In this document: one piece after another, positions 11,108 to 20,748 of the stretch
How positions within the stretch are numbered: position 1 is the stretch's first letter
How the letters are laid out: each line of letters starts with the position of its first letter
DNA from: a virus
Strand: one strand, 5' to 3'
DNA length: 20,748 nt
Virus record (IMG/VR): IMGVR_UViG_3300009604_001167
Span: 1-20,748 of that record
Notes under the pieces: model-generated
What the model saw: only the letters and a program-made list of their open reading frames with translations
Database searches by the model: none
Told to the model about the DNA's origin: nothing
Translations under genes and position numbers: made by a program

Positions 11108-12386
11108 TGCTACACAGAAAGAAGCAGTACGTGCTTGCACCTCACCCGATAACAGGATCGTAGCTGTAACTGGTCAAGCAGGAACAGGAAAGACTACGAT
11201 ACTAAAACAAGTCTATGAGTTCTGGAAGAGACAGAATAAGGAAGTTGTACTAGCAGCACCAACAGGAAAAGCTGCAAAACGTATTAAGGAGCTAACAGGT
11301 ATACCTGCTATGACGTTTCACCGTCTCCTTGAATACCCAATGCCTGGAGAAATAGATGAAAAGACAGGCAAGGCACTTGTTTCATCAGACCCTAAGTGCG
11401 ATAGAAACAAACCAATTCCTTATGATATTATACTTGGCGACGAGTATGCTATGGTCAATCATGAAGTACATCGTAACCTTCTTGATGCTATGCGTCCTGG
11501 GAGTCTTATACGCATGTTTGGAGATGCTAATCAATTGTCTCCGATCGAGAGTGCCAAGTCTCTTCAGAACAGGCCGTCGCCATTCATGAACATGTTAGAC
11601 AAGTTTAATGGTGTCTGGCTAACTAAGATACATAGACAGGAAGAAGGCAGCGACATTATATCAAACGGTGATCTGATCATACGTGGTGGAATGCCGAAGA
11701 GAAGTAACACATTCATTCTTGATATCACAGATGATCCTGTAGTCGTCATATGTAATAGAGTCCTGGCTGAATTAGATGACGTAGATGACTTTGGCAATAT
11801 AAAAGATGAAGCTGTAGACTTTACAAGTATTCATAATCAGATAATATCCTGCACTAAGAAGGGATGGGTTGGAACAGAATCTCTCAACGCCCAGATTCAA
11901 TCATTAGTACAACCATCAGGTAGAATGTACTGGGAACTCGAACGCCATCAATGGGATGAAAGATCCCATCTTCGTATCTTTGAAGGAGACAAGGTTGTTA
12001 TGATGAAGAACAACTATGGTCTTGAAGTGTTTAATGGAGAGACTGGTATTGTCTCGAAGATAGATGATCAAATGGGGATCGAGATAGACTTTGGAGATAA
12101 GGTCACTACTATACCAACAATTCAAGAGTACGAAGATAGACATGGTTCTAAGTACTTTAATCCTCAGAAAGATATAGACCTTGCATATGTAATCACAACA
12201 CACAAATGTCAGGGTAGTGAGTACGAACACGTCATGTACGTGATGAATAAGTCAAGGAACTTTCTACTGAATAGGAAGAACTTATACACTGGTATATCAA
12301 GAGCTCGTAAGTCTGTTAGATTGGTTACAGATCAACGAGCCTTGTCTCTATCACTCTATAAGAAGGATGATAAGATAGTCAGATGA
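11073..12386 (+). CDS. RecD/Dda-like SF1 DNA helicase
   Basis: A 437-residue superfamily 1 helicase. Walker A is GQAGTGKT (34-41). Walker B is ILGDEYAMV (about 118-126; DE box). Motif III is GDANQLSP (about 149-156), motif IV is KIHRQ, the C-terminal RecA fold has THKCQGSEYEHVMYV (motif V, about 374-388), and motif VI is YTGISRARKSV. This order and the short length fit SF1B 5'-3' helicases such as T4 Dda and the RecD C-terminal half. Its likely role is origin opening, fork restart or displacement of bound proteins in phage replication. It overlaps the RHH gene by 35 bases and ends in ATGA overlap with the kinase. An internal ATG at 11097 is possible but less well placed. Confidence 0.88.
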   Translation: MNQIISKQMELDATQKEAVRACTSPDNRIVAVTGQAGTGKTTILKQVYEFWKRQNKEVVLAAPTGKAAKRIKELTGIPAMTFHRLLEYPMPGEIDEKTGKALVSSDPKCDRNKPIPYDIILGDEYAMVNHEVHRNLLDAMRPGSLIRMFGDANQLSPIESAKSLQNRPSPFMNMLDKFNGVWLTKIHRQEEGSDIISNGDLIIRGGMPKRSNTFILDITDDPVVVICNRVLAELDDVDDFGNIKDEAVDFTSIHNQIISCTKKGWVGTESLNAQIQSLVQPSGRMYWELERHQWDERSHLRIFEGDKVVMMKNNYGLEVFNGETGIVSKIDDQMGIEIDFGDKVTTIPTIQEYEDRHGSKYFNPQKDIDLAYVITTHKCQGSEYEHVMYVMNKSRNFLLNRKNLYTGISRARKSVRLVTDQRALSLSLYKKDDKIVR

Positions 12387-13000
12387 CTGAAATCATAATA
12401 GTCAATGGCCCACCAGGCTGCGGTAAAGACATGGCAGTTACATACCTAAAGAAGGACATACCAAACTGTGAAGTATTTAGGTTTGCTGATCCACTCCGTA
12501 AGATATTCAGGGCCATGTTCAACTTCACAGATATACAAACATATAATCTATTGGAGAATCTAAAGGATGAACAGTCCGTCACCTTGGGATACGCAGACTG
12601 GCCTGCAAGTGATGCACCTGCAACAAGAAGCCCAAGAGAAGTTCTTATTGATATTAGCGAGAACTATATTAAGCCTATGTTTGGAGATGCTCACTTGGGT
12701 AAACTGGTGGTTAGAGAGATCAATCAAACACCGTGTAGATATGCACTCATTAACGGTGGAGGATTCGACGGAGAGGTTGAAGCTATTGTCAAAGCCTTCA
12801 GCCCAGGAAATGTCTTTATCTTACAAATCGAAAGACCGGGATGCGACTTTGATAATGACAGTAGAGACTGGATTGATTGGAAAAAATGGGGATGTAAAGG
12901 TAAGCGTATAAATAATGAGCATGAACTTGACTTATATCGCATTCAACTTTGGAGGGCTCTACGTTGGATACCAGCGTTAGAAACGAAACTGAACTCCTAA
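12383..13000 (+). CDS. deoxynucleoside monophosphate kinase (T4 gp1-like)
   Basis: A 205-residue P-loop kinase. The N-terminus has VNGPPGCGKD (7-16), the P-loop, followed by a strand leading to FRFADPLRK, where this family binds the deoxynucleotide. SPREVLIDISENYIKPMFG matches the acceptor helix pattern (R.vLq..g......fg) of T4 gene 1-type dNMP kinases. It would phosphorylate dNMPs, including those from degraded host DNA or modified ones, to dNDPs. The exact base range cannot be told. It sits between helicase and polymerase, starts in ATGA overlap with the helicase, and its last 37 bases overlap the polymerase start and carry the polymerase's ribosome binding site. Confidence 0.75.
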   Translation: MTEIIIVNGPPGCGKDMAVTYLKKDIPNCEVFRFADPLRKIFRAMFNFTDIQTYNLLENLKDEQSVTLGYADWPASDAPATRSPREVLIDISENYIKPMFGDAHLGKLVVREINQTPCRYALINGGGFDGEVEAIVKAFSPGNVFILQIERPGCDFDNDSRDWIDWKKWGCKGKRINNEHELDLYRIQLWRALRWIPALETKLNS

Positions 13001-15411
13001 GAGAAATAACAAAACTTACAACTCAAATAGGATTGACGCTGAGTTGCCCAGGATCAGGACCACTTGAATCAAAGATACTAGTTATAGGAGAAGCTCCTGG
13101 CGAGAAAGAAGAGCAGATGAAGATACCACTTGTGGGACCATCTGGGGCTTACTTCTGGGATAAGATGCAAGAGATTGGAATCACAAGATCACAATGTTAT
13201 GTTACAAATGTATGCAAGAGAGTTCTCAACTTTGGTAGGCAGATGTCTGATAAGTCTCCCATCAAGAAAGACGAAAGAGACCATTGGGAAGGACTACTAG
13301 ACTGGGAAATAGATCAGTTACCTAATATAGAGATAGTCATAATACTAGGCGGAATGGCTTTACACGCTCTTGTTAACGATAGCAAGATCACTAACTGGCG
13401 TGGTTCTGTATTTAACTGTATGGTCGGCAGATCTCAGAGAAAAGTCAGTGCAATAGCCATGTTCAATCCTGCTTATATACTATACGAATCCAGGTGGGAA
13501 GTCATATATAAGTTTGACGCAAACAAGATTAAACTAGTACGCGAAGGTAAATACAAGAAGCATGTAATAAAACACCGGATTAATCTGTCATTGGAAGAAG
13601 CGCATGATGAACTTGACAGTCTTATGGATACCGATAAACCCATCGCTTTCGACATTGAGACTATTGCGAACCAAACAGCATGTATTGGCTTTGCGAATCA
13701 AGCGCATGAAGGAGTCTGCATTAATTTCCGTGGAAACACTAGTGACACGTTCTCCCTTGAAGACGAGGTTGGACTACGTAAACATATTCAAAGACTATTC
13801 TCCAAACCCGGCAAACGATTTATAGCTCAGAACGGTAACTTTGATGCTTACTGGCTTTGGTACAAAGATCGCATCCGTGTTCAACCGATTTGGTTTGACA
13901 CTCTTTTGGCTCATCACACCCTCTACCCACGAATGCCACATAACTTGGGGTTCCTCACCGCACAGTATACGACTCATCCGTATTACAAAGACGAAGGAAA
14001 AGAATGGAGGGAAAATCCTGACCCTAATGCGATCAATCAGTTTTGGGATTACAACGTCAAAGATTGCGCCATCACTTACGCAGTACACGAAAAGCTCCAC
14101 GAAGAACTCAAAGAACAAAAGCTAGATAAGTTCTTCTTCGATCGAGTAATGAAACTACAACCACATCTTACAGCTATGACTGTCGGAGGAATAAAAGCAG
14201 ACAAAGAGTACAAAGATAAACTAGCTATTGAGTTTCAAGAAGAACTGGATAAGAAAATACAACAGTTCTATTCTATTGCCGAAAAGATAAATGGAGAACC
14301 ATTGTATCCTAATCTGCGCTCTAATCAGCAGATGGCAAAGTTCTGGTTCGATGACATGAAGTTAGTCGGTCACGGTAGAAGCACTAACAAAGCGAATAGA
14401 GATAGGATGTTAGTGCATCCAGGCACCACTGATACACATGCAGAACTCATACATCTATACAACGACTTCGCAACAGACACTAAGTTTCTATCGACATATC
14501 TAAATTCAAAAGTAGATCCTGATGGAAGGATACGTTGTGAGTATAGACAGTGGGGAGTTCAGAGTGCTCCAGGTAGATTGAGTTCAGCTCAGGTCATGTG
14601 GGGTTCAGGAATGAACTTACAGAACCAACCAGAAAAAGCATACCACATGTTTGTATCTGACCCTGGATACATGTTCACATACTTTGACCTATCACAAGCG
14701 GAGGCTAGAATTGTCGCATATCAATGGAAAGTCAATGGACTTATCGAGTCATTCGAAAGAGCTAAGACAGACAATAGCTTCGATGTGCACAGAGGGAATG
14801 CCGAGCGAATCTTTAGAATCCCATATGATGAGATTCCTTCCTACGATAGAGACGATAAAGGAAGACCTACTCTCCGCTTCCTTGGAAAGCGATGTGTACA
14901 CGGACTTAATTATCGTATGGGAGCCCCACTTCTCGCGGAAGTGTGTGGTATACCTATTAACCAAGCATTCGAAGCGCACGCCGCTTATCATCTCGCTTTC
15001 CCTGAAATCAGAAAAGCTTGGAAGGAAATTGCAGACGAAGTTAGAGCTAACAAAGTACTCTACTCACTCTTGGGACGCAGACTTATCATACTTGAGAGAA
15101 TTACCGAGAAACTACTTGAACCAATTGTCGCATTCGTTCCCCAAAGTACTATCGGTGACAAAGTTGCTGGTTGCATATACGAGTGTCACGAAGACCCCGA
15201 GTGGCCTATTGATGCTAGAATGCTTCTAAACATACATGACGCGCTCATTGCAATACACAAGCCAGAAGACAAAGAGATAGTTCAGAGAATAATGAAGAAA
15301 CATGCAGAGAGTCCGATAAAGATACGCGGACAGGACATTATCATTCCAGCAGAGATCAAGGAGAGCCATCCTGGTGAGGATGGTTTACACCGATGGAGTA
15401 CAATAAACTAA
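12964..15411 (+). CDS. DNA polymerase I with N-terminal UDG-like domain
   Basis: An 815-residue replicative polymerase of family A. Residues about 30-190 form a family-4 uracil-DNA-glycosylase-like domain: GEAPGEKEE (42-50), VGPSG, YVTNVCK and FNPAYIL (167-173). Known parallel: the SPO1 phage polymerase carries such a domain. The usual His of the HP(A/S) motif is Asn here, and the paired Fe-S cysteines are absent. The 3'-5' exonuclease follows: FDIET (229-233), NGNFD (290-294), YNVKD (363-367), all acidic residues kept. Polymerase motif A is FDLSQAEAR (about 574-582), motif B is KRCVHGLNYRMG (about 642-653, Tyr at the position of Taq Phe667), and motif C is IHDAL (757-761). No 5'-3' exonuclease domain. 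The TTG at 12964 is chosen because GGAGG lies eight bases upstream; the frame is also open from 12949. Confidence 0.92.
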   Translation: MDTSVRNETELLREITKLTTQIGLTLSCPGSGPLESKILVIGEAPGEKEEQMKIPLVGPSGAYFWDKMQEIGITRSQCYVTNVCKRVLNFGRQMSDKSPIKKDERDHWEGLLDWEIDQLPNIEIVIILGGMALHALVNDSKITNWRGSVFNCMVGRSQRKVSAIAMFNPAYILYESRWEVIYKFDANKIKLVREGKYKKHVIKHRINLSLEEAHDELDSLMDTDKPIAFDIETIANQTACIGFANQAHEGVCINFRGNTSDTFSLEDEVGLRKHIQRLFSKPGKRFIAQNGNFDAYWLWYKDRIRVQPIWFDTLLAHHTLYPRMPHNLGFLTAQYTTHPYYKDEGKEWRENPDPNAINQFWDYNVKDCAITYAVHEKLHEELKEQKLDKFFFDRVMKLQPHLTAMTVGGIKADKEYKDKLAIEFQEELDKKIQQFYSIAEKINGEPLYPNLRSNQQMAKFWFDDMKLVGHGRSTNKANRDRMLVHPGTTDTHAELIHLYNDFATDTKFLSTYLNSKVDPDGRIRCEYRQWGVQSAPGRLSSAQVMWGSGMNLQNQPEKAYHMFVSDPGYMFTYFDLSQAEARIVAYQWKVNGLIESFERAKTDNSFDVHRGNAERIFRIPYDEIPSYDRDDKGRPTLRFLGKRCVHGLNYRMGAPLLAEVCGIPINQAFEAHAAYHLAFPEIRKAWKEIADEVRANKVLYSLLGRRLIILERITEKLLEPIVAFVPQSTIGDKVAGCIYECHEDPEWPIDARMLLNIHDALIAIHKPEDKEIVQRIMKKHAESPIKIRGQDIIIPAEIKESHPGEDGLHRWSTIN

Positions 15412-15426
15412 TGATAGGAGAGTTCT

Positions 15427-16677
15427 TTGATTCCGTCTGTGCCTGAAGGATCATTCATTGATCTCTACATGAAGGCCCAACAAGATAAAGAGACTGCAAC
15501 TCTTTACGACTTTTGGGCTGCAATCTACTTGATAGGAGCTTGTTGTGGTCGAGATGTTATTGTGGATCGTCCTGCTAGTCCAGTTTATCTCAATTGGTAT
15601 ATTGTATTCGCATCGGAATCGGGCAAGACTAGAAAATCGACTGCGATTAGAGAGGTTCAAAGATGCCTTAATGGCCTTGGACACAACAATGACTACGGTC
15701 TTATCATTAGTGCTAAGACTCCACCTGAGACGCTTGAAAAGTCACTCGCTAAGCGAACAAGAGAAGTTGGTGATGCAAGGTGTAATATCATCTCTTCCGA
15801 AATGGTCACTATCCTCGGAAGAGAGGGATACATGGCGGGAATGCCTGGACTCCTTACAGACCTCTACGACTGTGCAGATAGGAGATTACCCAACAGAGAC
15901 AGAGAAGGAGAACTAACTCATGCCAACGTCTTTACCACGCTTCTCACAGCTTCCACCCCAAGCTGGCTCGTCACTGCAATCAATCCGCAAGTGGTTGAAG
16001 GGGGCTTCGCATCAAGAGTTATCTTTGTTTGCGCTAGCCAACGTAAACGAGCTATTGCTTGGGGAGGGGTTTCAACCGAAAAGGTGGGATCAGATCGAAT
16101 TATCGAATCTCTTGATATTGCGGGTAGAAATGCGAGAGAAGTTGGAAAAATCACCGCTAATGAGCGAGGACTTAGGCGCTTCACTCAGTGGTACAACACA
16201 CGACCTTCTAGCTTCGATCCTTTCGAATCCAGCTTTGAAAGTAGAGAAGACGACCACGTCCTACGACTCGCAGCGTGTCTTGCCATTAACGATGGTTCAT
16301 TCGAACTACAAGATGGGCACATTAGATCTTCGTGTCGCGCTATCACTGACATTAAGGCTAATGCCATCAAGCTCTTTGGAAGAGGAACCAGTAGCTCAAG
16401 TAGATTCGGAGACGGTATTGACGGAGTTAGAAGAAACCTAGTAAAAGCTGGGCACGATGGAATACAACACTCTAAACTCTATAACAATGTACGACGCAAC
16501 ATAGACACGAAAGAGTTTAAAGTCTTGATTGAAGTTATGAAAGAGTGCGGTTATATAGATGTATTCGAAGTTGGAAGCGGCACGAAGAAAAAGAAAATAT
16601 ATAGAGCCACACGAGCAATAGAGAGCTTGGATGTTACTTCTAACGTGTTGGGGAAAATATCCCCGCACCAATCATAG
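15427..16677 (+). CDS. DUF3987-like ATPase, possible replicative helicase
   Basis: A 416-residue protein of the DUF3987 type, found in phages and plasmids, often beside primase domains and thought to be a helicase-like ATPase. After a lead-in (LYDFWAAIYLIGACCGRDV) comes a P-loop at 62-72 (ASESGKTRKST), where the second glycine of the canonical GxxxxGK(S/T) is replaced by Arg. A Walker-B-like strand is NIISSEM (near 119-125). LLTASTPSW and GGFASRVIFV are further typical blocks. No primase domain is fused. The C-terminal 100 residues look like a winged helix. TTG start at 15427, with AGGAGAG five bases upstream. It is the last gene of the operon; its end overlaps the minus-strand gene by 38 bases. 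Confidence 0.72.
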   Translation: MIPSVPEGSFIDLYMKAQQDKETATLYDFWAAIYLIGACCGRDVIVDRPASPVYLNWYIVFASESGKTRKSTAIREVQRCLNGLGHNNDYGLIISAKTPPETLEKSLAKRTREVGDARCNIISSEMVTILGREGYMAGMPGLLTDLYDCADRRLPNRDREGELTHANVFTTLLTASTPSWLVTAINPQVVEGGFASRVIFVCASQRKRAIAWGGVSTEKVGSDRIIESLDIAGRNAREVGKITANERGLRRFTQWYNTRPSSFDPFESSFESREDDHVLRLAACLAINDGSFELQDGHIRSSCRAITDIKANAIKLFGRGTSSSSRFGDGIDGVRRNLVKAGHDGIQHSKLYNNVRRNIDTKEFKVLIEVMKECGYIDVFEVGSGTKKKKIYRATRAIESLDVTSNVLGKISPHQS

Positions 16678-19600
16678 GACGCCTTTGGAGCTTGGTTAGG
16701 TCCACATCCACATCTCTATTAAAGTATGTACTTAGCTGCTTACTAGCGAATACCTCATAATTCTTTAAGAAGTGTAGCTGTTCAGCTTTAACTGATGTGA
16801 TCATAGACTTGTAATAATCAGTTAGATCGGCTCTATCTTGAGCAGTTAAATGTGACTTAGTTACCTCATCATATGTAGCATTTCCGAGCTTTGCTATTGA
16901 CACCCTATGTGCCGAAACTTGTTCGTCGTACTGTCGCATAATAGGAGAAAGATATGATGTATGATTTGCTAAAGCCTGTATGATTGGGTCTTCTATAATA
17001 ATACGCTCACCTGCTAGTGGATAGCCAGCAGAAGTTACCATCCCTTGCGTTGTGATATTTCTAAGGTCTTTGGATAACGCTTGAATGTTCATTCTGCGTT
17101 TGATTATTTCTTCGTTGATCTCCTCACCAGGGTTAGCTGATAGAGCTTTACCAAAGAATGGAGTTGTTATTGGATTAAGGTATCTTGCTTGACGTCTGAC
17201 CTCTCTCCCCAATGTACCGAAGGCTTGTGAGGCACCTTCCATAATACTCTGATCAGACCCAGCGACAAATGCTTCGTGCATCCTTGTGTATGCTAATCCA
17301 GCACTACCGAACATTGCACTAATTGCCGCCTTTGTAGTAGCCTTAAGAGCCGAGTCAACATGTTTATCTATTCCACCAGTACCCGTAATGCGCTCAGGGG
17401 CAGCAAATGGTTGTAGTTTAAGTGTAGTAACTATCTCTTCACCTTGTTGATCTATACCTTCTACTAATCCAGCTCTTATGTTAGCTCCGCTCAAGGCTCC
17501 CACCATCTTTATGAAGGGAGGCAATGGTATATCTAATACACGTTCAAGTGCGCGTCTATAGTTCTTACCATTAACATCAGCTCTACCTGATTCCCCAACA
17601 TTAGAGAAGTTAAAGAAAGCATCTGCTGCCTCTATGACCGCAGAACGAAAAAGACCAAACTCAGGACTTATTGGAATTAGTACGGCTTCCCAAGGAGGTC
17701 TGCCAGGAATAAAAAAAATTGCGTTACTCGTCCTCTGATCATCAGAGAATCCATTCCAGTAGTAATCATTGTATGACCATGACTTGCCTCTTTCAACAGG
17801 ATCAGGCCAAAGTTTATCAGACGCTTCTGATAGCATACTATTATAAGCAAGCTCTGTCATCGTTGGGAAGCCGACAACACCCACCATCATCGGAAGTATC
17901 TTATCCCAGTGCTTCATCATGTGAGAGCCGATTGAGTTCCATGATTGTATCATAGCACCAGAGAACGGAACACTCGCATTAAAACCCTGTATAAAAGGCG
18001 ATGTTCCCATACGAGTTACATCACCAGCCACATCTTTGGCTTCGCGCACGATGTTTCTAAGTTCTTTTCCTACAGGCATCTCGTCGTATTCTCTTAATCG
18101 ACGCATAACTAGACCGTAGGCAGCGCCCTCATGTAATGCTGTATTGGCATTCTTCCAAGTTCGCCATATAAGGCCGGCTGCTTGAGTTCCCCACATCTGT
18201 TCGAAGTTAGGTAGATTTGCTTCAAACACACCTGTTAGGTCATTTGTGAATTGCTGTGATTGAACGGACGTTGCCAGTCTTCCTGTATGACGCTTTACAT
18301 GAGAAGAGTATGAACGAGCGTATGCTCTATCAAGCCTATCTCTAAGATTTGTCCAGAATTTAGGGTTAACATGCCCAGATAGACCTGTTCCAGTCTGTAA
18401 TCTAAATGTAAGATGATTAGATATATCTTTGCCAGCCGTTGCAGAGAACAGATCCCAAGCACCAATGAAGGCGTCTTTGTTTGTTCTAAGCAACTCCATT
18501 GTCATTTTACCAGGATTGTACGTACCTAATCTCATTGCACGGTTTATTGCAGTTTGCTGTACACCAAAGGCAGCAGAGACCGGAGAAAATAACGATAAGT
18601 CACCAGTAGTAAAACGCTGGAACATACGCTTATGTTTATTGGCCATAACCATTATGTTGCCCCAATCTTCTTTTACGTGTAGGGCCGTTCTTAGATGTGT
18701 ATCAGGAACATAGAAAGCGTACTTATCTCCTTTGTGTTGAACCCAAATAACATCGTCGGCAAAGAGACGTTGGGTATCGATAGTAGCAAACTTATTATTA
18801 AGATCAAACCGCTCGGCTAATACTTCCCAGTCATCACCTTTAGCAATATAACCACCATCAACTTTTTTACCTGCATCATCAATTGCCGTTGATGCAGTCC
18901 AATCATCTGAGCCTTTGTCAATAGTTATTCTCTGCCTAGCAACAAACCTTGGTGAGTCTATAGCCGATACGTTTTCGGGAACGCCTTCTCTATATAATCT
19001 ACCCTGTTTATCAATGGCTATACCCGTCATACGAGCTAGGTAATTCCATTGATATGTTGACTTATCTATATGTTCTATAAAGTGGTAAGCATAGTTTCTA
19101 AGTGCTCCTACCGGGTCGCCTGGCGTCATTACACCTTTTGCATGAGTACGACTGCGTTTAAGCAAGTTACTAAACTCAGCTAAGTTCTTGCCTGTTGTTG
19201 ATCCAGTACCAATGTACGCTCCCATCTTTTTGAATATTGAGGCACGTACTACTGCATTCTCTTTTGGAACATATACCCTTTGACCGTCAAGCACAAAGAG
19301 ATTCTTTAATGCTGTGGCTGTTTCCTCGTCGAAGACTTTTTGCTTTACGGCTCTTTCAAGTAGATTATCGAATACTGCGGTATACTCATTTGCAAGCAGC
19401 TTAACTTCTGGGAAATTAAGTTCTATATTCTTTACCGTCGACTCTAGCTCACTCCTTGGTATCGGACTTTTCTTACCATCAGCGCCAGCTTGAGCGTTTC
19501 TCCACATTCCAGGCGCTTCTTCTGGTCTATAGTTCTCCAGATTACGCCGGATAGCCATCATTGCAGCTCTGTGTTCATTCATCAACACGTTCATTTGGTC

Positions 19601-20748
19601 GAGATTACTTTCATCCACTGCAATACGAAGCGATGCTAATGGAAAGTCGTCAGCAAGCTCTGTACCTGGTGCATGTCTTAATAGCCAACTTGCATCCGCA
19701 TTAATCCTATTAGCAATCTCATCTCTGCTGTTCATATACTCAGTAAACATTCTACGTTTTTGAGGCCCGAGACGATTAAGCTTATCATCGAATGTATCTA
19801 TAAAATCGATATTAAACTGTTCATACCTTCCGAGATGGTCTGCTTCTTGAAGACCCTGTATTTCCTCTGACTCCCCGTACACAGCATTACGAAACTTCTC
19901 CTGAACTAACTTACCTTCATCAATATAACGACCTTTGACTTTAGAAGCGACACTACGAGCAGCCGAGGCAGCAGGCGTAAGAAGTGGGTCTGTCGTTTGT
20001 TTGAGTGTATTGGGTATACCAAACTTGTCGAGGAACTTAGATGCCCCTGTCTCTAATGCTGCGCGTGTCCTTGCTGATACCTTATCATTGGTTTCTGCGA
20101 CAGAATTGTCCTTAACATCATCCACAAAGTCCATGAACTTATTGGTTCTTGCTTGCTGACCAAGTATGTTACGTGTACCAGGCTGGGCTTTCTTAATCGT
20201 TCCTGCTCTAAACTTTCTTGCACCTGCGTAACCAAGGATACCAGCAGCAGCCATTGCTACAGCTATCTTAGCGTTGCGCCATTCCTCTGCCCTAGCAATC
20301 TCAATGTCTTGGTTAATCTGAGTCTGACGTAAGGATTCAGAGTCTATGTTTATTGTTTCGGGCTCTGGACTACCTGTGAGTATCTGAGCTTCTGCTTCTT
20401 CTAACTCTTCCCTTGAAATGTTTATTGTTGGTATCTTACCTGAAAGTGCGCGTTCACTAAATATAGTTGGCAATTCGGGATCATCCATAAGAGCGCGGAC
20501 AGTTTGATCAATACCTATCCCAAGTCCAGCCTGTGTACCAAGTCTTATCTTATCTCCCTTAGTAAGCCCGCCACGACCAAACTTACGTAGGTTTCCTTCT
20601 ATTCTAACTGCTGGTGTAGCTAGTGCGGCTGCTTTGCCGCCGACATTACCTAACTTGCCTAGCCAAGCTGCTGGAACAGGAACAGCAACCGATGAGATAA
20701 TACGAGAAGCCTGGTCTTCCAATGAGACTGGCTCTTTAATATTAAGGA
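16640..20748 (-). CDS. giant virion-type protein with LPD38-like region, truncated by window edge
   Basis: A minus-strand frame of at least 1,369 codons, probably an internal virion or ejected protein. Numbering from the TTG at 20722: a short hydrophobic stretch occurs at 151-166 (AKIAVAMAAAGILGYA). Around 710-735 lies LFSPVSAAFGVQQTAINRAM and around 904-930 VTRMGTSPFIQGFNASVPFS, the layout of large polyvalent protein-associated domain 38. The rest is long and helical with Ala/Gln-rich segments. The TTG at 20722 is not necessarily the start: the frame stays open upstream (LNIKEPVSLEDQ) to the window edge. Proteins of this kind occupy the capsid core and enter the host with the DNA (family knowledge; role here inferred). 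Opposite strand from the replication genes suggests a late structural block. Confidence 0.7.
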   Translation of the reverse strand, partial: LNIKEPVSLEDQASRIISSVAVPVPAAWLGKLGNVGGKAAALATPAVRIEGNLRKFGRGGLTKGDKIRLGTQAGLGIGIDQTVRALMDDPELPTIFSERALSGKIPTINISREELEEAEAQILTGSPEPETINIDSESLRQTQINQDIEIARAEEWRNAKIAVAMAAAGILGYAGARKFRAGTIKKAQPGTRNILGQQARTNKFMDFVDDVKDNSVAETNDKVSARTRAALETGASKFLDKFGIPNTLKQTTDPLLTPAASAARSVASKVKGRYIDEGKLVQEKFRNAVYGESEEIQGLQEADHLGRYEQFNIDFIDTFDDKLNRLGPQKRRMFTEYMNSRDEIANRINADASWLLRHAPGTELADDFPLASLRIAVDESNLDQMNVLMNEHRAAMMAIRRNLENYRPEEAPGMWRNAQAGADGKKSPIPRSELESTVKNIELNFPEVKLLANEYTAVFDNLLERAVKQKVFDEETATALKNLFVLDGQRVYVPKENAVVRASIFKKMGAYIGTGSTTGKNLAEFSNLLKRSRTHAKGVMTPGDPVGALRNYAYHFIEHIDKSTYQWNYLARMTGIAIDKQGRLYREGVPENVSAIDSPRFVARQRITIDKGSDDWTASTAIDDAGKKVDGGYIAKGDDWEVLAERFDLNNKFATIDTQRLFADDVIWVQHKGDKYAFYVPDTHLRTALHVKEDWGNIMVMANKHKRMFQRFTTGDLSLFSPVSAAFGVQQTAINRAMRLGTYNPGKMTMELLRTNKDAFIGAWDLFSATAGKDISNHLTFRLQTGTGLSGHVNPKFWTNLRDRLDRAYARSYSSHVKRHTGRLATSVQSQQFTNDLTGVFEANLPNFEQMWGTQAAGLIWRTWKNANTALHEGAAYGLVMRRLREYDEMPVGKELRNIVREAKDVAGDVTRMGTSPFIQGFNASVPFSGAMIQSWNSIGSHMMKHWDKILPMMVGVVGFPTMTELAYNSMLSEASDKLWPDPVERGKSWSYNDYYWNGFSDDQRTSNAIFFIPGRPPWEAVLIPISPEFGLFRSAVIEAADAFFNFSNVGESGRADVNGKNYRRALERVLDIPLPPFIKMVGALSGANIRAGLVEGIDQQGEEIVTTLKLQPFAAPERITGTGGIDKHVDSALKATTKAAISAMFGSAGLAYTRMHEAFVAGSDQSIMEGASQAFGTLGREVRRQARYLNPITTPFFGKALSANPGEEINEEIIKRRMNIQALSKDLRNITTQGMVTSAGYPLAGERIIIEDPIIQALANHTSYLSPIMRQYDEQVSAHRVSIAKLGNATYDEVTKSHLTAQDRADLTDYYKSMITSVKAEQLHFLKNYEVFASKQLSTYFNRDVDVDLTKLQRRPMIGAGIFSPTR

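Follow-up and report, generated by a model that had tools for sequence, protein, structure and literature searches.

Uracil recognition by glycosylases and polymerases

Fusions of a uracil-DNA glycosylase (UDG) domain to a family-A DNA polymerase (PolA) are already known from SPO1, PaBG and phiLo (9qhs). In the glycosylase-fold protein UdgX of Mycobacterium smegmatis, residues Asn91 and His178 touch the uracil and Phe65 stacks on it; the mutants H178A and N91A are folded yet inactive, and the mutants F65A and K94A unfold (PMC10776899). The motif that holds this histidine, motif B, reads HPA in family-4 UDGs and HPSxLLR in UdgX. Template uracil is also recognised by archaeal family-B polymerases, which sense it through an N-terminal pocket (PMC8596578), and a catalytically inactive UNG serves as a uracil-binding sensor (PMC7505663). 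What is new here is a clade of phage polymerases with a fixed His-to-Asn change in motif B and a rebuilt iron–sulphur cluster site.

The polymerase and its neighbours

The window, the whole 20,748-nucleotide stretch of viral DNA analysed (IMG/VR record IMGVR_UViG_3300009604_001167), encodes at 12964–15411 (+) a protein that sequence, Pfam, PHROG and AF2 analyses identify as a family-A DNA polymerase with an N-terminal UDG-like domain and a 3′–5′ exonuclease. The reading frame opens with TTG at 12964 and its stop lies at 15411. A Shine–Dalgarno-like GGAGGG at 12951–12956, 7 nt upstream, makes this TTG the probable start, as the first-pass annotation had it. Residue numbers follow the translation P0001, which is numbered from 12949, such that TTG 12964 is residue 6. 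The same virus is also found in a 37,944-base IMG/VR contig, with 100% protein identity.

The polymerase matches phrog_17 DNA polymerase (E=3e-88), and its full AF2 model has a pLDDT of 94.2 and a pTM of 0.91. Pfam domains follow one another in the order UDG (PF03167, residues 34–181, E=1.5e-19; 13048–13491, +), DNA_pol_A_exo1 (PF01612, residues 228–387; 13630–14109, +) and DNA_pol_A, comprising palm, fingers and thumb (PF00476, residues 428–787; 14230–15309, +). The UDG domain thus lies N-terminal to the exonuclease and PolA domains in one protein, an arrangement of the SPO1 and PaBG kind. The exonuclease and polymerase parts are intact and retain their catalytic residues: Asp235, Glu237, Asp299, Tyr368 and Asp372 of the exonuclease are invariant, and Asp580, Arg643, Lys647, Tyr655, His763 and Asp764 of the polymerase are conserved. 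Residue His651 (14899–14901) corresponds to Phe762 of E. coli Pol I. Every clade member covering the position has histidine there, and so do 10 relatives of the His type that lie outside the Fe-S/SPO1 group. For this position PMC6302109 describes variants with Phe, Tyr or Leu and does not mention histidine.

A deoxynucleoside monophosphate (dNMP) kinase-like gene (12383–13000, +; phrog_139, E=5.5e-31) directly precedes the polymerase and overlaps its start, and a primase/helicase-like gene, DUF3987-like in relatives, follows at 15427–16677 (+; phrog_14296, E=5e-20; synteny). On the opposite strand, positions 16640–20746 (−) hold an ORF of 1368 amino acids that matched no PHROG; related phages likewise have a very large gene on the opposite strand after the polymerase and primase. 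The window phage also has a PF03567 sulfotransferase-family gene at 2183–2836 (+; E=5e-11).

A glycosylase fold with an altered active site

The AF2 model of the UDG domain (pLDDT 94.0) found family-4 UDGs and UdgX as its best fold matches in the PDB (1l9g, E=3.8e-13), and family-4 UDGs were also the best solved relatives in a profile search (1vk2, E=9e-34). Given these matches of the modelled domain, and a PF03167 match in 60 of 60 scanned members, the resemblance to UDGs is not a matter of chance. The UDG-like assignment made in the first-pass annotation therefore holds.

Motif A is of the family-4 type GE(A/G)PG (Gly47-Glu48-Ala49-Pro50-Gly51; 13087–13101, +), and the VGPSG block occupies residues 62–66. 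Motif 3 (Thr86-Asn87-Val88-Cys89-Lys90; 13204–13218, +) supplies Asn87 and Lys90, the equivalents of UdgX Asn91 and Lys94. Motif B reads NPAYILY (residues 173–179; 13465–13485, +) and lacks the histidine of the family-4 HPA motif: Asn173 (codon 13465–13467, in FNPAYIL) takes the place of the catalytic His178 of UdgX, and lies immediately N-terminal of a predicted helix at residues 174–179. GEAPG, VGPSG and FNPAYIL, with its asparagine, are as first annotated. Two further substitutions had not been recognised: alignment puts Leu61 (13129–13131, +) where the uracil-stacking Phe65 of UdgX is expected, and Tyr179 replaces the motif-B arginine, Arg184 in UdgX.

Conservation of Asn173 across a phage clade

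A survey of viral contigs and phage records recovered 112 different UDG domains, and in 97 cases 350 or more polymerase residues come after the domain. At the motif-B position these 112 domains carry Asn (86), His (19), Ser (3), Glu (2) or a gap (2), counts that are not population frequencies, as the survey query was itself of the Asn type. In a tree built by a quick method from the exonuclease and polymerase columns only, with no outgroup root and with unsure long branches outside the clade, 81 rows out of about 100 domain-bearing polymerases form a single clade (SH-aLRT 100, branch 1.8). Within it the catalytic-His position is Asn in 77 members, Ser in two, Glu in two and His in none, so that the alignment check proposed with the first annotation finds the asparagine conserved.

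Other pocket residues are conserved to a similar degree. In 71 clade sequences, Asn173 is kept in 67, Glu48 in 70, Asn87 in 68 and Lys90 in all 71; over the full 81 rows, Asn87 is kept in 78 and Lys90 in every one. Asn173 ranks 22nd in conservation among the scored UDG positions, with Glu48 and Asn87 similar and Lys90 invariant. The stacking position is more variable (Leu 59, Phe 16, Met 6). Between close pairs, dN/dS for the UDG domain lies mostly at 0.04–0.2, approximately as in the rest of the protein, although synonymous sites are saturated in many pairs.

The few exceptions tend to fall together. Asn87 is lost in three clade members and Asn173 in four, and both are lost in two members of separate lineages (L011 and L070); the association (2/3 versus 2/78; Fisher p=0.005) ignores relatedness. 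In the two sister sequences with Glu173, motif A is also broken (EAVN). Small as the numbers are, the joint losses favour a functioning pocket in the remaining members. Outside the clade, the asparagine occurs in a Desulfofustis phage, which looks like a separate inactivation, as its motif A is broken and a tyrosine stands at the Asn87 position. A genome scan for cellular or proviral copies returned only distant PolA relatives at 23–27% identity, with nearly all of the matching outside the UDG domain.

Alignment and phylogeny thus describe a large group of uncultured phages in which the replicase carries a UDG domain with the His-to-Asn change and a rebuilt Fe-S site. As judged from sequence, this putatively inactivated domain is real, deeply conserved and specific to the clade, and since the altered state has been retained over long evolution, the domain is probably still in use. 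Two records elsewhere in the survey depart from the single-chain arrangement: the fusion is split in Caulobacter phage Kuura (L016, 3977–7381), with the UDG domain on an ORF separate from the polymerase, and the polymerase of Vibrio phage VS-ABTNL-3 (L022, 3956–7090) is broken into two ORFs.

Replacement of the iron–sulphur ligands

The four cysteines that hold the 4Fe-4S cluster of family-4 UDGs are missing from the window domain, in agreement with the first-pass annotation: neither the CxxC nor the second cysteine pair is present, and only isolated cysteines occur (Cys33, Cys83, Cys89 and Cys157). The third and fourth ligand positions are occupied by Arg91 (13219–13221, +) and Trp113 (13285–13287, +). 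Among the 91 domains whose motif B lacks histidine (Asn, Ser or Glu types), the third position is Arg or Lys in 87, and the fourth is Trp in 85 and Tyr in the other 6. These replacements are confined to such domains; where the histidine is kept but the cluster is gone, the same positions are mostly Gly or variable. This contrast indicates that the site has been rebuilt, as opposed to randomly lost.

Complete sets of Fe-S cysteines were found in four polymerases, all of the His type (L017–L020), and 14 further His-type domains have no Fe-S ligand at all. The cluster therefore appears to have been lost earlier than the histidine, an order that is tentative because the tree has no outgroup root. 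The four complete cases belong to Brevundimonas phage MaInes, Pseudomonas phage PMBT14, MW202455 and vir526, and their fused UDG domains, with histidine and four cysteines, are possibly active glycosylases on replicases. The MaInes polymerase adjoins 7-deazaguanine genes, and that of MW202455 adjoins a gene annotated 'pyrimidine hmase synthase'.

Uracil and modified pyrimidines in the phage genomes

The first-pass annotation had allowed that the domain might bind either uracil or a modified pyrimidine. The clade genomes give no sign of hydroxymethyluracil or of any other modified pyrimidine: dUTPase and thymidylate synthase were unmatched in 35 viral contigs, many of which may be incomplete, and dCMP deaminase was unmatched in the 31 viral contigs examined. 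The matches that these searches did give lay in MW202455 and phi18, both phages of the His type. A Tet/JBP search was silent in every control genome as well and carries no information. The modified-pyrimidine version is accordingly without support and was set aside.

The lack of a dUTPase match in all 28 clade contigs makes uracil in the template plausible. No second UDG was found: each of 41 records has a single PF03167 match, on the polymerase. The phrog_139 dNMP-kinase-like gene (E below 1e-10) is present in 11 of 28 clade contigs and in none of 13 other records.

Possible functions of the altered domain

The role that best fits the sequence evidence is the one first proposed, a reader or clamp that does not excise. 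Its likeliest activity is to bind the template, probably at uracil, and to leave the base in place. That a UDG was inherited with the polymerase, lost excision and was retained as a part of the replicase that reads DNA has, in our estimate, about an even chance of being correct. A more specific form is put forward tentatively, as plausible but short of probable: the replicases of this clade would carry their own sensor for deaminated bases, uracil or others, which does not excise and derives from an inactivated UDG with a rebuilt Fe-S site, as a counterpart in an unrelated fold to the read-ahead pocket of archaeal PolB. In this mechanism, the template strand would run past the UDG domain, and a flipped-out uracil, arising from cytosine deamination or dUTP incorporation, would enter the old pocket, to be recognised by the motif-A loop (GEAPG) and Asn87. 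As the motif-B histidine is missing, the glycosidic bond would stay uncut, so that the polymerase would pause or stay held to the template and avoid making an abasic site in it.

Each part of this scheme has its own basis. Loss of excision is suggested by the UdgX mutants, uracil binding by the kept motif A and Asn87 together with the likeness to inactive UNG sensors, and pausing at uracil by analogy with archaeal PolB. The inactive UNG sensor of Rona (2016) reportedly has a His-to-Asn change at motif B. Against a reader stand the stacking aromatic, which is Leu or Met in 65 of 81 members and whose loss is expected to weaken uracil binding, and the motif-B arginine, which is also missing in the window protein.

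The main rival is a purely structural or processivity role, in which the domain packs against the exonuclease and grips DNA without recognising any base, its pocket residues being retained for folding; we regard it as a serious possibility, though a less likely one than a reader. The poxvirus UDG D4 acts in processivity, and high processivity is a property of T5 polymerase. Half-domains likewise count for this role and against a reader. In the polymerases of Serratia phage Slocum (T5-like; L189, 2324–4855; hhalign E=2e-7, prob 93.5) and Gordonia phage MAnor (L190, 2321–4699; E=2e-12, prob 97.7), the match to the UDG profile is confined to its C-terminal part, and motif A is missing from their N-termini, which implies that the fold can serve without a pocket; T5-type polymerases may thus carry half of such a domain. 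Among viral polymerases, full-length structural matches have TM scores of up to 0.78. The loss of the stacking aromatic in most members also speaks for a structural role. Yet motif A, Asn87 and Asn173 rank with the best-conserved positions of an otherwise variable domain, and Asn87 and Asn173 tend to be lost jointly. Since Asn173 stands directly before a predicted helix, Asn or Ser at this position could be retained as a helix cap; Asp or Thr would also serve, yet neither is ever seen at residue 173.

It is unlikely that the domain is still an active glycosylase, with Asn173 or another residue replacing the histidine, on uracil or another base. A motif B without histidine does exist, as in family 2 (MPSSSAR; PMC10359453), and motif A and Asn87 are intact; however, UdgX H178A is inactive (PMC10776899), the stacking Phe is missing in most members, and an enzyme fixed to the replicase would create abasic sites in its own template. 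Simple decay to a functionless remnant, which the first-pass annotation had thought equally reasonable, is rejected as very improbable: the catalytic histidine and all Fe-S ligands are gone, and further pocket residues are lost at a few tips (L011, L070, L036/L037), but the asparagine is fixed in the 81-row clade, dN/dS is low, Lys90 is invariant and the Trp/Arg replacements are clade-specific.

Comparison with known systems

In an entire clade, a substitution that should abolish excision has become fixed while other pocket residues are kept, and whether a replicative family-A polymerase can sense template uracil has become a testable question. If it can, template read-ahead would extend past archaeal family B, and the clade would supply natural uracil-binding domains. 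If it cannot, the domain would define a structural or processivity element that may connect to T5-type polymerases.

The family-4 UDGs (Thermotoga TM0511, 1vk2/1l9g; Thermus UDGa, 1ui0), which are the top PDB matches of the window domain in both sequence and fold, share its motif A, GE(A/G)PG, and a TNVxK-like motif 3. The window domain differs from them in its motif-B asparagine, its lack of the four Fe-S cysteines, its leucine for the stacking Phe and its fusion to a polymerase. UdgX is the best single-sequence PDB match and has in common the motif-A Glu and the Asn and Lys of motif 3, but its motif A is GEQPG, and its KRRIH loop with the cross-linking His109, absent after motif 3 in the window domain, its His178 and its Fe-S cluster have no counterpart there.

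Among polymerases, the SPO1 type (phi18, SPO1L1; PF03167 E=8.5e-22) has the same UDG–exonuclease–PolA order and has also lost the Fe-S cysteines. To this extent the parallel with SPO1 drawn in the first-pass annotation stands; it fails at the active site, where the SPO1 type keeps the HP of motif B, has QENPF as motif A and carries Ser for the uracil-contacting Asn87. For Pseudomonas phage PaBG, its authors noted a DNA polymerase I of the PolA type with a UDG domain (PMC7412058). The phiLo family-A polymerase, solved with a modified template (9qhs), is longer at 1142 amino acids; its N-terminus matches the UDG profile at residues 11–154 (E=1.6e-10), and its fold matches that of the window domain (E=2e-6). 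Archaeal family-B polymerases such as KOD resemble the clade in the proposed function, with their N-terminal sensing of template uracil (PMC8596578), and are unrelated in both fold and polymerase family.
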